Origin: Archangium sp.
Lineage (GTDB): Bacteria > Myxococcota > Myxococcia > Myxococcales > Myxococcaceae
DNA: 64,000 nt
Direction of reading: 5' to 3'
Assembly: GCA_030681645.1 (NCBI GenBank)
Contig: JAUXRX010000005.1
Coordinates: forward strand, 310,001-374,000
Program-made: the position numbers and the translations under genes
Notes under the pieces: generated by a model
Told to the model about the DNA's origin: nothing
Databases searched by the model: none
The model's input: the letters and a program-made list of their open reading frames with translations, nothing else
Shown here: positions 27,095-51,174 of the stretch, piece by piece
Position numbering within the stretch: the first letter of the stretch is position 1
Layout: each line of letters starts with the position of its first letter

Positions 27095-27993
27095 CCTCGC
27101 CCACTCACCGGGGGCGCTTCGCGCCCAGCCCAACGGGCCGTCTCCATCTCGGCAACCTGCGCAGCGCCCTGCTGGGCTGGCTCTGGGCGAGGTCCTCCTC
27201 GGGAGAGTTCCTCCTCCGCATCGAGGATCTCGATCCCGATCGCAGCAAGGCTGTCTTCACCGACGGCATCTTCGAAGACCTCGAGTGGCTCGGCCTCGAC
27301 TGGGATGGCCCCGTCTGGCGCCAGTCGGAACGAGGGGAGCTCTACGACGAAGCGATCTCCCGCCTGTCGCAGAGTGGCCGCGCCTACCGCTGCTGGTGCA
27401 GCCGGGCGGAAGTGGCGCGCGCGGCCTCCGCGCCCCACGCAGGAGAAGAAGGTCCGGTCTACCCGGGCACCTGTCGCGAGGGGGCAACCCCGAAGCCGGG
27501 CCGGGAACCCTCCTGGCGCTTCGCCGTCGAGCCGGGCACCGAACGCTTCACCGACGCGGTCCACGGAGAGGTGACCCAGGACGTCGCGCGAGACGTGGGC
27601 GACTTCGTGATCAAGCGCATCGACGGCGTGGCGAGCTACCAGCTGGCCGTGGTGGTGGACGACGCGCTCTCGGGCATCACCCACGTGCTGCGCGGGGAAG
27701 ACCTGCTGGCCTCGACCGCGCGTCAGCTGCAGCTCCAGCGCGCGCTGGGCTACCCGGCGCCGACGTACGCGCACGTGCCGCTGTTGATGCAGGCCGACGG
27801 AAAGCGGCTGGCGAAGCGCGACGGGGCCTCGACGGTGGCGGGCCTGCGTGAGCTCGGCTGGCCGGCAGAGAAGGTCATCGGTCAGCTCGCGGCGTGGAGT
27901 GGACTGGGTGACGGCACCCCCGTGAAGGCGCGGGAGCTGATCAGCGGCTTCTCGCTCGCCCGGGTGAAGCGGACCGCGACGGTGGTCGGGTGA
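27091..27993 (+). CDS. gluQ: Glutamyl-Q tRNA(Asp) synthetase
   Basis: 300 residues. Attaches glutamate to the queuosine base in the anticodon of tRNA(Asp), a wobble-base modification. It is a glutamyl-tRNA synthetase catalytic domain without the anticodon-binding half. HIGH-type motif is HLGN in RFAPSPTGRLHLGNLRSALL, and the KMSKS counterpart is KRLAKRDGAS. Zinc ligands are in CWCSRAE and PGTCRE. Length fits GluQRS (~300) and not GltX (~470). GTG start overlapping the PEGA gene; the stop overlaps the next gene likewise. Confidence 0.93.
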   Translation: MTSPTHRGRFAPSPTGRLHLGNLRSALLGWLWARSSSGEFLLRIEDLDPDRSKAVFTDGIFEDLEWLGLDWDGPVWRQSERGELYDEAISRLSQSGRAYRCWCSRAEVARAASAPHAGEEGPVYPGTCREGATPKPGREPSWRFAVEPGTERFTDAVHGEVTQDVARDVGDFVIKRIDGVASYQLAVVVDDALSGITHVLRGEDLLASTARQLQLQRALGYPAPTYAHVPLLMQADGKRLAKRDGASTVAGLRELGWPAEKVIGQLAAWSGLGDGTPVKARELISGFSLARVKRTATVVG

Positions 27994-28457
27994 GGCGCGA
28001 GCTCCTCATCGCGGCGGCGGTGCTGGTGCCGTTCGGGGTGCTCGTCGCCGCCGGGTTCTATTTTTCGCCTGAGCCAGCCCCGTTCATCCCGAGCGAAGTC
28101 GAGAAACCGTTCATCCCGAGCGAAGTCGAGGGACCGTCGGCCCAGTTGCCCCTCGACTCCGCTCGGGGTGAACGGTCACCGGTGTTCCCGCCCGGACTCG
28201 CCGCCCCGCTGACGGCTGTCCTGCCCGAGGTGAAGCGCTGCTTCGCCGACCAGCACCTCAAGCAACTGCACGAGGTCCGCGTGCGCTTCACCCCCACCCG
28301 CGACGGGGGCTTCGACCGGGTGGAGGTCGACGAGCAGAACCCGTACCTCCAGGCCTGCCTCGAAGACGTGTTCGCCGAGGTCGCCTGGCACCCGTCAGGG
28401 CCTGAGACGTACACCCCCGCTGAGCACACCTTCAGCTTCGGGCCCTCCCCCGACTGA
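27990..28457 (+). CDS. Membrane-anchored small protein carrying three translated family A repeats
   Basis: 155 residues, GTG start. One N-terminal membrane helix (LLIAAAVLVPFGVLVAAGFY) is followed by a 32-residue stretch that is almost entirely three family A repeats: PFIPSEVEKP, PFIPSEVEGP and LPLDSARGERS. The conserved body (about residues 75-150) resembles the AgmX/PglI C-terminal or TonB-like fold, with VLPEVKRCFADQHL, VRVRFTPTRDGGFDRVEV and LQACLEDVFAEV. The repeats lengthen the linker between anchor and domain. Coupled to gluQRS by overlap. Confidence 0.6.
   Translation: MRRELLIAAAVLVPFGVLVAAGFYFSPEPAPFIPSEVEKPFIPSEVEGPSAQLPLDSARGERSPVFPPGLAAPLTAVLPEVKRCFADQHLKQLHEVRVRFTPTRDGGFDRVEVDEQNPYLQACLEDVFAEVAWHPSGPETYTPAEHTFSFGPSPD
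28082..28173. repeat. Family A palindromic repeats, copies 4-6 (cluster inside a gene)
   Basis: Three copies: 28082-28107 and 28109-28134 are direct neighbours in the same orientation (GTTCATCCCGAGCGAAGTCG), and 28149-28173 is inverted. All are read in frame in the membrane protein at 27990-28457, the first two as PFIPSEVE, the third as LDSARGE. Confidence 0.9.
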
Positions 28458-42304: not shown

Positions 42305-43024
42305 ATGCCGAAGGTCCAGCGCAACACCACCCAGGCCGTCACCCCGCAGCCCACGAAGCCGAAGACCACCGTGCCTGCGAAGCCGCAGCCCGCCACCTCG
42401 AGCACCGGGTGGGTGAAGCCCGCCACCGGCGGCACCGTGGGCGGCGCGTCGATCGACACCAAGACCGCGCGCACCGCGTTCTGGCACTCGCCGTACACCA
42501 ACGCCGACGCGAAGGCGGCGCAGAAGGCGTTCGGCCTGCCCAACCTCAACGCGGCGAAGGAGTTCATCGGCCGGGCGGTGATCACCCGCAACGAGGGCCC
42601 GCTGCAGCAGAAGGGCATCAGCCGCGCCCGCTACGACAACCACGACTGCACGGTGGCCTTCTCGCGCAGCCCGTACACCGACGCCGACGCTCGCCAGGCG
42701 CTCTCGAAGATGCCCTTCCTCAAGAACGTCGCCGAGGCGAAGGAGTACATCGGCCTCAAGATCGTCAACAAGACGGAAGACATCCTCCAGGAGGTCGGCG
42801 TCACCCGCTCGAAGTTCGACAGCCACGACATGATGGCCGCGTTCAAGCGCTCGGGGTACTCGGCCGCCGACGTCGACCAGGCGAAGAAGAAGTTCGACTT
42901 CCTCAAGGGCGCCACCACCCAGGAAGTGAAGGAGTACATGGGGCTCAAGGTGCTCAACGACTACACCTCGATGATGACCGAGGCGGGCATCACTGCCGGC
43001 CGCGATCGCCACGAGATCAAGTGA
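42305..43024 (+). CDS. Triple-repeat protein upstream of amidoligase
   Basis: 239 residues, not recognised. A ~48-residue Thr/Pro/Lys-rich start (TPQPTKPKTTVPAKPQPATS) is followed by three tandem ~62-residue repeats. Unit 1 has AFWHSPYTNADAKAAQKAF and AAKEFIGRAVITRNEG. Unit 2 has AFSRSPYTDADARQALSKM and EAKEYIGLKIVNKTED. Unit 3 has AFKRSGYSAADVDQAKKKF and EVKEYMGLKVLND. Each ends near [RS]xxxDxHD. There is no signal peptide. The stop overlaps the amidoligase start (GTGA), so the two are made together; this protein may be the ligase substrate or partner. Confidence 0.65.
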   Translation: MPKVQRNTTQAVTPQPTKPKTTVPAKPQPATSSTGWVKPATGGTVGGASIDTKTARTAFWHSPYTNADAKAAQKAFGLPNLNAAKEFIGRAVITRNEGPLQQKGISRARYDNHDCTVAFSRSPYTDADARQALSKMPFLKNVAEAKEYIGLKIVNKTEDILQEVGVTRSKFDSHDMMAAFKRSGYSAADVDQAKKKFDFLKGATTQEVKEYMGLKVLNDYTSMMTEAGITAGRDRHEIK

Positions 43025-44028
43025 AGGTTCGGCGGCCCCTCGACTCCGCTCGGGGTGAACGGGTCGGACTCGAACTGGAGCTGCTCGCACCTCCAGGGAA
43101 GACACGCTTCGACCTGGCGCGCGCTCTCGCGAAACGAGCGGGGGGCGCGCTTCGTCTTGCCTTCAAGTACCACGGCCAGGGCGAGCTCCCCGACGGGCGG
43201 CCCGACTGCCAGCTCACCCCCACGGCGCGCGTGCTGGTGCGTGGGAAGTGGTTCTGCTCGGTCGTCGATGATCCCACCATCGTCGACGAGCTGGCGCCGA
43301 CTGACGAGAAGCTGCGAATCGCGAGGACCGACGACGTGCGCCTCGCCGCGTGGATCGAACGCAACTGCCACGCCCGGTTCGCTGGTCCCTCGACTCCGCT
43401 CGGGATGAACGGTGCTGCCTTCGCTTCGCTGGTGAAGACCTTTGCGGCGAAGGAAGAAGAAGACGGCTTCGTCGATCCCTGGGGCCTGCCGCTGGTGCGC
43501 TGGCACGAGGTGTCTGCCGAGCGCGCGCGGGTGTGCGAGGTGGTGCTGCGTCCCCTCGGCCGCAAGGCGCTCGCCCCTACCCTGCGCCGGGTGCTGAAGC
43601 TCGCCTCGTCACTGGGCTTCACGGTGCCCGTCGAGGCGGCGATTCACGCGCACTTCGACGCCGCGCCATTTCGTTCCACGCGTGCGTTGCGGCGGCTGGT
43701 GCTCGATTGGACCGAGCAGCGCACCTCGCTGCTGCGCGTGCTCGAGCCCAACCCGCGCTGCCGCAAGCTGGGCCCCTTTCCACCCGACGTGGTGCGGGTG
43801 GCGCAGGCCGCGACCGACGACCTGCCCTTCGAGACGCTGGCCGCGGGGCTGCTGCTCGGTGGGCTGCACCGCGCGGTGGACCTCAACCTGCTGGGCCTGG
43901 TGGAGCGCTACCCGAAGCAGCCGACCATCGAGGTGCGCTGCCTGCCCGGGTCGCTCGACGCCGACGCGACGCTGGGCCGGCTCGCCCACGCCGAGGCCTT
44001 CCTGGCCGACGTCACATCCTCCGCTTGA
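43021..44028 (+). CDS. Amidoligase-family protein (COOH-NH2 ligase-like)
   Basis: 335 residues, GTG start. Pattern of the putative amidoligase family (Amidoligase_2): GLELELLAP at the start, WFCSVVDDPTI, EVVLRPLGRKALAP, VEAAIHAHFD (the GxHVHV region), and near the end DLNLLGLVERYPKQPTIEVR. This glutamine-synthetase-like fold joins carboxylates to amines with ATP. Two family A repeats are translated within it, RPLDSARGERV at the very start and PSTPLGMNG near residue 125. The natural start may therefore be blurred. The 3' end overlaps the convergent dehydrogenase by 17 bases. Substrate unknown. Confidence 0.72.
   Translation: MKVRRPLDSARGERVGLELELLAPPGKTRFDLARALAKRAGGALRLAFKYHGQGELPDGRPDCQLTPTARVLVRGKWFCSVVDDPTIVDELAPTDEKLRIARTDDVRLAAWIERNCHARFAGPSTPLGMNGAAFASLVKTFAAKEEEDGFVDPWGLPLVRWHEVSAERARVCEVVLRPLGRKALAPTLRRVLKLASSLGFTVPVEAAIHAHFDAAPFRSTRALRRLVLDWTEQRTSLLRVLEPNPRCRKLGPFPPDVVRVAQAATDDLPFETLAAGLLLGGLHRAVDLNLLGLVERYPKQPTIEVRCLPGSLDADATLGRLAHAEAFLADVTSSA
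43036..43060. repeat. Family A palindromic repeat, copy 7 (amidoligase N-terminus)
   Basis: CCCCTCGACTCCGCTCGGGG plus TGAAC, read as PLDSARGE immediately after the amidoligase start codon. Confidence 0.85.
43387..43410. repeat. Family A palindromic repeat, copy 8 (inside amidoligase)
   Basis: CCCTCGACTCCGCTCGGGAT plus GAAC, read in frame as PSTPLGMN in a loop region near residue 125 of the amidoligase. Confidence 0.85.
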
Positions 44029-50070: not shown

Positions 50071-51174
50071 ATGCCTGTGAACGGGATTGGAAGTCCATCA
50101 GCACCTCGCGTCGTTGGTCCCACTGCGAAGACCGAGCCCACCGCTCCGGTTGCCCCCCAGGCGCCCGCGCAGAGCAACGGCTGGGCCGCCGGCACCAACA
50201 ACCAGCGCCCCCTCGACCTCTCCCTGCCGAAGCACGTCAGCAGCGACGCCGACATCCGCGCGTCCATGCCGAACCCGGTGCGCGCCCAGCTCGAGGCCGC
50301 GCTCAACACCTACACCTCGAAGATCGAGACCACGCTCGGCCACGACGCCATGAGCATGGCCCGCGGCCGCACGCCGGTGCGCGAGGGCGACACCCTCACC
50401 GCCGCCCAGCAGACCGAGCTGCAGAACGCCTCGACCGACTTCCTCAAGAGCATCCCCATCGGCGCCTTGAGCCCTGAGCTCGCCGCCGGCATCACCCAGA
50501 AGCTGAAAGACGCCGGCCTCGAGACGCGCGACGTCGCCAGCACGAAGCTGGGCGACCTCGGCAACATCGGCGGCGACATCGCCAGGGACCTGATCAAGGA
50601 CCTCAAGGCCGCTTCCCCCACGGCGTACTACTCGCTCGCTGGTGGCCTCGCGGCCGCGGCCGGCGTGGTCGCGTGGACCGGCGGCAGCGCCAAGCTCGCC
50701 AGCCTCGGCATCAAGCCCGAGGTGAAGCAGAAGTTCTTCGACGACAAGCTCGAGGTGAAGCTCGGCGGCGAGTGGGACGCGCACTTCAAGAACTTCAAGG
50801 CCACCGGCACCGTCACCGGCCGCGTCGACCTGGGCGACGCAGGGCGGCTCTCGGCCTCGGTCACCGGAAACTCCGCGACCGGCTTCGACAACGCGCGCAT
50901 GCAGTACGACTTCAACCGCCCCAACCTGAACCTGTCCGCCTACGCCACCGCCAACCGCGACGGCATGGAGACGGTCGGCGGCAACCTCGCGTACCGGCCC
51001 AACGACAACCTGAGCCTGTCCGCCGGCATCAACCACAACTTCCAGACCGACCGCACCACCGCCACCGCCGAAGCCGCGTGGAAGGTGAACAAGAACGTCG
51101 ACTTCGCCCTCTCTGCGAGCCACGACTCGCAGGGTGACTCGCGCGTCGGCGCGGGCGTTCGCATCCGCTTCTGA
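50071..51174 (+). CDS. Hypothetical protein with Pro-rich start and beta-repeat C-terminus
   Basis: 367 residues, not recognised, no signal peptide. The first ~45 residues are Pro/Ala/Thr-rich, a start similar in kind to the repeat protein at 42305. A helical middle (about 50-185) holds the amphipathic stretch YYSLAGGLAAAAGVVAWTGG. The C-terminal ~160 residues are alternating strands ending in aromatic/charged pairs (LEVKLGGEWDAHFKNFKATG, LSLSAGINHNFQTDRTTATA and final GAGVRIRF). That resembles an outer-membrane barrel with a C-terminal Phe. How it would be exported is unclear. Coupled to the next gene (TGATG). Confidence 0.55.
   Translation: MPVNGIGSPSAPRVVGPTAKTEPTAPVAPQAPAQSNGWAAGTNNQRPLDLSLPKHVSSDADIRASMPNPVRAQLEAALNTYTSKIETTLGHDAMSMARGRTPVREGDTLTAAQQTELQNASTDFLKSIPIGALSPELAAGITQKLKDAGLETRDVASTKLGDLGNIGGDIARDLIKDLKAASPTAYYSLAGGLAAAAGVVAWTGGSAKLASLGIKPEVKQKFFDDKLEVKLGGEWDAHFKNFKATGTVTGRVDLGDAGRLSASVTGNSATGFDNARMQYDFNRPNLNLSAYATANRDGMETVGGNLAYRPNDNLSLSAGINHNFQTDRTTATAEAAWKVNKNVDFALSASHDSQGDSRVGAGVRIRF

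Follow-up and report, generated by a model that had tools for sequence, protein, structure and literature searches.

A triple-repeat protein and a divergent Amidoligase_2 protein encoded by a lineage-restricted gene pair in Myxococcota: a candidate protein-modification module

Amidoligase_2 enzymes join acids to amines and, to our knowledge, few of them have a proven substrate. Protein ligation is known from PafA, which has a glutamine synthetase (GS)-like fold and joins a protein tag (Pup) to Lys residues, and the graspetides are produced by ATP-grasp ligases acting on precursors, some of which hold repeated cores. For amidoligases of the family considered here, cell-wall modification or secondary-metabolite synthesis has been suggested (PMC10580990).

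The gene pair described in this work is located in the window, that is, the whole stretch of 64,000 nucleotides of Archangium sp. DNA that was analysed. It encodes a triple-repeat protein (P0001) and a divergent Amidoligase_2 protein (P0002), and shows the following features:

42305..43024, + strand: triple-repeat protein P0001, 239 aa, from the ATG at 42305 to the last base of the stop codon at 43024
42305..42448, + strand: N-terminal leader of P0001, 48 residues, low-complexity (pLDDT <50 for residues 1-48)
42476..42655, + strand: repeat 1 of P0001, residues 58-117, with K85; the most conserved unit (AFWHSPYTNADA invariant)
42656..42838, + strand: repeat 2 of P0001, residues 118-178, with K146
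42839..43021, + strand: repeat 3 of P0001, residues 179-239, with K209
43021..43024, + strand: GTGA overlap of the P0001 stop and the P0002 start, 4 nt
43021..44028, + strand: divergent Amidoligase_2 protein P0002, 335 aa (GTG start at 43021, core from VGLELEL at 43063)
43037-43062, + strand: REP-type element 1 in the ligase ORF, 26 bp, between the start codon and VGLELEL (N-terminal extension absent from relatives)
43387-43412, + strand: REP-type element 2 in the ligase ORF, 26 bp, in frame (encodes a loop absent from relatives)

As judged from its sequence and predicted structure, P0001 is a previously undescribed protein made of three similar helical units. The first residues of the units are 58, 118, and 179, and any two units share an identity of 31-42%. 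They are not a product of chance, since an HMM of the unit scores 95-101 bits on each of them. The three repeats reported in a first-pass annotation of this DNA are thus confirmed, although the length of ~62 residues given there has to be corrected to 60-61 aa in the window; in other genera, the unit reaches up to 69 aa. Each unit is predicted to fold into four helices (with an overall pTM of only 0.40), while residues 1-48 are modelled as disordered. No significant match to the repeat was obtained in Pfam, NCBIfam, PHROGs, PADLOC, PDB sequences, PDB folds, or the viral folds of BFVD, in agreement with the earlier remark that no described system holds it.

Across 30 units of the family, only four positions are invariant, namely F59, K85, G89, and G104 in the numbering of repeat 1, and S62 shows a single exception. 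The conserved Lys that had drawn attention at first reading is therefore present once per repeat in all 30 units (K85, K146, and K209 in P0001). Conservation between genera amounts to 56% for repeat 1, and to 44 and 47% for the other two. All ten family members carry a short N-terminal leader rich in Pro, Ser, Thr, and Gln, the start of which is loosely common to the ten and most clearly recognized as MPxRTTAAQxVxPR in the genera g5 and g18. The C-termini vary (IK, LP, IP, DR, GR, or RS), with RHEIP versus GWGR between genera.

The motifs by which the second gene had been recognized as an amidoligase (GLELEL, VEAAIHAHFD, and QPTIEVR) are all found in P0002. This protein matches the Amidoligase_2 profile PF12224 at 29.7 bits (cut-off 22; E=7e-7), with residues 13-317 of 335 aligned to model positions 3-234 of 245, a match above the curated cut-off that makes it a full-length member, and Pfam returned no other family for it. 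Residues G16, E18, E20, H209, H211, D213, E304, and R306 are invariant in nine ligase members. In a profile comparison with canonical Amidoligase_2 proteins of the same bacterial family, HxHxD, E-V/I-V..P, LNL, and TIExR align (probability 90), while the GxExE of P0002 falls outside the aligned stretch. P0002 retains the GxExE, HxHxD, and ExR residues, for which a role in metal and ATP binding is expected; the loss of ATP-binding residues, which had been named as an argument against a ligation pair, is not what was found, as the motifs shared with canonical members are conserved. The structure of P0002 is predicted with confidence (pLDDT 89.7, pTM 0.85). No PDB chain was matched by the P0002 profile, and a Foldseek search of the model against the PDB gave nothing at E <= 0.001, with glutamine synthetase at rank 13.

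The same genome encodes a canonical Amidoligase_2/cyclotransferase locus (G000:C37), whose PF12224 protein has HxHxD and TIExR in common with P0002. However, canonical members score ~200 bits against PF12224 and P0002 ~30 bits. Furthermore, canonical copies adjoin gamma-glutamylcyclotransferase-like genes, whereas P0002 adjoins the repeat protein instead, and none of the genomes examined showed a gamma-glutamylcyclotransferase gene beside the pair. The ordinary Amidoligase_2 loci of the family, considered as possible paralogues of the pair, were set aside as a different system associated with cyclotransferases.

The likeness to Pup and PafA (PMC3511204) lies in a small protein dedicated to a ligase, which in P0002 would be related to GS. 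In contrast to Pup, P0001 is folded according to its model, repeated three-fold, and not conserved at the C-terminus. The conserved C-terminal Glu/Gln is absent, and the neighbours of the pair are unrelated, with no proteasome-type genes nearby. Graspetides (PMC8939145) resemble this locus in the possession of a leader and repeated segments next to a gene for an ATP-dependent amide-forming enzyme. Nevertheless, their ligase is of the ATP-grasp type and P0002 belongs to Amidoligase_2, and graspetide cores are short and acidic, while the P0001 repeats are 60-residue units predicted to be helical.

The pair is real and new, and is confined to one lineage, in which a few uncultured myxobacteria carry it. 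Among 195 Myxococcota genomes, the repeat profile detects 10 genomes of three genera in one family, and the ligase profile gives strong matches in the same 10 plus G014. Repeat gene and this amidoligase subfamily co-occur in all 10, with the ligase directly after the repeat gene in nine of them and 2 kb away in the other (G002), where two other genes lie in between. The order is identical for every repeat gene, so that the pair does recur in other Myxococcota, a point that the first-pass annotation had named as a check, and a widespread repeat protein devoid of amidoligase, which would have spoken against a functional link, was not encountered. The GTGA overlap had also been taken as evidence of translational coupling; this holds for the window and for the relatives G004 and G005, which share the overlap, but not elsewhere, where the genes are separated by ~7-20 nt, ~85 nt, or the 2 kb already mentioned. 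When 84,980 species were scanned with a nucleotide pattern, nine loci were obtained, all in Myxococcales-type metagenome assemblies labelled Archangium, Myxococcus, Myxococcaceae, Archangiaceae, or Myxococcales, and no relatives of the pair were found in viral contigs, plasmids, or phages. Two further matches were discarded: one in G028 to the single-unit profile (E=0.002 in the 195 genomes), which falls inside an NHL-type protein and was taken as chance, and a sub-threshold Rfam match at the locus to a trypanosome snoRNA.

The genes surrounding the pair, with names read from their translations, are an aldolase and a thioesterase in g1 and EI24, LptB, and RpoN in g5, with a different context in g18. 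Since these neighbourhoods differ by genus, the pair is kept as a unit. The main splits of the protein trees of repeat protein and ligase agree, and within g1 the dN/dS values (0.20-0.48) show purifying selection on the two genes. Between genera, dN/dS of the repeat gene exceeds 1; positive selection was not accepted as the reason, and we attribute the value to a strong codon bias that restrains synonymous change. Two other genes of these regions deserve mention. In G005, a C39-like/C70-like cysteine peptidase (L028:5796-6581) is encoded two genes downstream of the pair. At 50071-51174, the window encodes a protein of 367 aa whose start is rich in Pro, Ser, and Thr and whose C-terminus may be of the outer-membrane type (Pfam matches are sub-threshold only), and a gene resembling it sits near the pair in G002.

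Codon usage separates the two genes. With ribosomal genes as the reference and 704 genes sampled, the P0001 gene has a codon adaptation index (CAI) of 0.893, above all sampled genes (ribosomal mean 0.74, the ribosomal reference genes themselves not being at the top of the ranking), versus 0.587 for the P0002 gene, which is exceeded by 83% of the sample and thus belongs to the bottom fifth. When amino-acid content is corrected for, the P0001 gene keeps the first place per codon, but 5% of the genes surpass it by z-score, a measure that also rises with gene length. The repeat gene is better adapted than the ligase gene in the seven relatives where both could be scored (7/7). Although codon adaptation reflects expression only indirectly, an abundant repeat protein and a scarce ligase would fit a substrate and its enzyme.

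According to these data, it is plausible that the ligase modifies the repeat protein. The reading that we favour, tentatively and at a confidence somewhat short of probable, is a two-gene module in which an abundant, soluble helical-repeat protein would be modified by a dedicated, weakly expressed amidoligase. P0002 would activate a carboxylate with ATP and join it to amines of the repeat protein, the likeliest acceptor being the Lys that is invariant in every unit (K85, K146, and K209); alternatively, it could join a small amine to a conserved Asp or Glu. The product would be a decorated protein, or one cross-linked by isopeptide bonds, and the N-terminal leader might serve as a docking site for the ligase. 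The more specific version, a leader-guided modification of the invariant Lys once per repeat by this dedicated enzyme, with a cross-linked protein material or isopeptide-linked chains as the outcome, is unlikely as a whole. The invariant Lys may have a structural role, which is presumably also that of the invariant Phe and Gly. Ligation at a conserved C-terminus is improbable because this end differs between genera, and a C-terminal carrier or tag mechanism was rejected for the same lack of conservation. Against the module reading stand the REP insertions in the window ligase and the 2 kb that separate the genes in one genome. Should P0001 indeed be modified by the ligase, this would represent a new kind of bacterial protein ligation. 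Genome context supplies a candidate partner for an Amidoligase_2 protein, with a named residue per repeat, and the pair is small enough for expression and assay in E. coli.

The repeat protein could instead act as a carrier, scaffold, or activator, with the amidoligase using it, or another target such as the cell wall, as the base on which a small peptide or metabolite is built, in the manner of carrier-protein and peptide-scaffold systems. The high predicted abundance of the repeat protein is compatible with such a role, as are the functions suggested for the amidoligase family (PMC10580990) and the pairing of the canonical copy of this genome with gamma-glutamylcyclotransferases, which is expected for small-molecule chemistry. 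We nevertheless regard this explanation as somewhat unlikely, given that no additional biosynthetic, protease, or release gene is conserved beside the pair, and that a carrier or tag should have a conserved C-terminal carboxylate, which the repeat proteins lack.

A repeat protein that is exported or antagonistic, and that the amidoligase activates or protects, is a still less likely explanation, which draws on the leader found in all ten members (modelled as disordered in the window protein) and on the genome G014. This genome encodes two related ligases, each convergent with a different partner gene. One partner (L033:1547-2779, 410 aa) holds two weak repeat-like units, which at 11.9 bits score higher than all of 2000 shuffles, together with a PdaC-like region that stays under the Pfam cut-off; the second (L034:3106-7086, 1326 aa) combines DUF4781 with a Fic domain whose motif is apparently intact (HPFQDGNGRTAR). 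The starts of both (MASRI and MPSRI) resemble the leader of the repeat proteins, and the corresponding pattern, M[PA]x[RK][IVT], is present in two of 694 other proteins. However, this likeness was spotted post hoc and the window protein does not have the exact form, there are no recognizable secretion genes nearby, the repeat protein shows no toxin domain, and neither P0001 nor P0002 has a match in PADLOC. A search with the N-terminus of the L033 partner recovered its own locus (E=8e-108) and otherwise borderline matches (E 0.002-0.01). The idea of a general leader common to many proteins was also examined, over ~0.84 Mb of the genome that holds the window, and rejected, as such starts occur in nine proteins only and with no common signal.

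A shared operon that serves expression alone, the two genes being biochemically unconnected, would accommodate the poor codon adaptation of the ligase, its two REP insertions, and the 2 kb distance in one genome, but is made very unlikely by the strict 10/10 co-occurrence over several neighbourhoods.

The 26-bp REP-type element (CCCTCGACTNCGCTCGGGNTGAACGG) has further copies in the window at 28080-28175 and elsewhere. It occurs 328 times in this genome and 35 times in G003, while G004 has a single copy and the remaining three congeners lack it. In ~0.84 Mb sampled, six of 32 copies lie inside called genes, even though 89% of this sequence is coding; the ligase was shortened by the gene caller, and the copy at 43037 is for this reason missing from those six. 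Two such elements have lengthened the N-terminus and one loop of the window ligase, where the residues that they encode are modelled as disordered (1-10) or with low confidence (121-130), and these insertions suggest that the enzyme tolerates disruption. Some REP-type copies are intragenic and are translated as short peptides, somewhat like the Rickettsia palindromic elements. Another ORF of the window (27990-28457, 155 aa) contains three copies in its N-terminal part.
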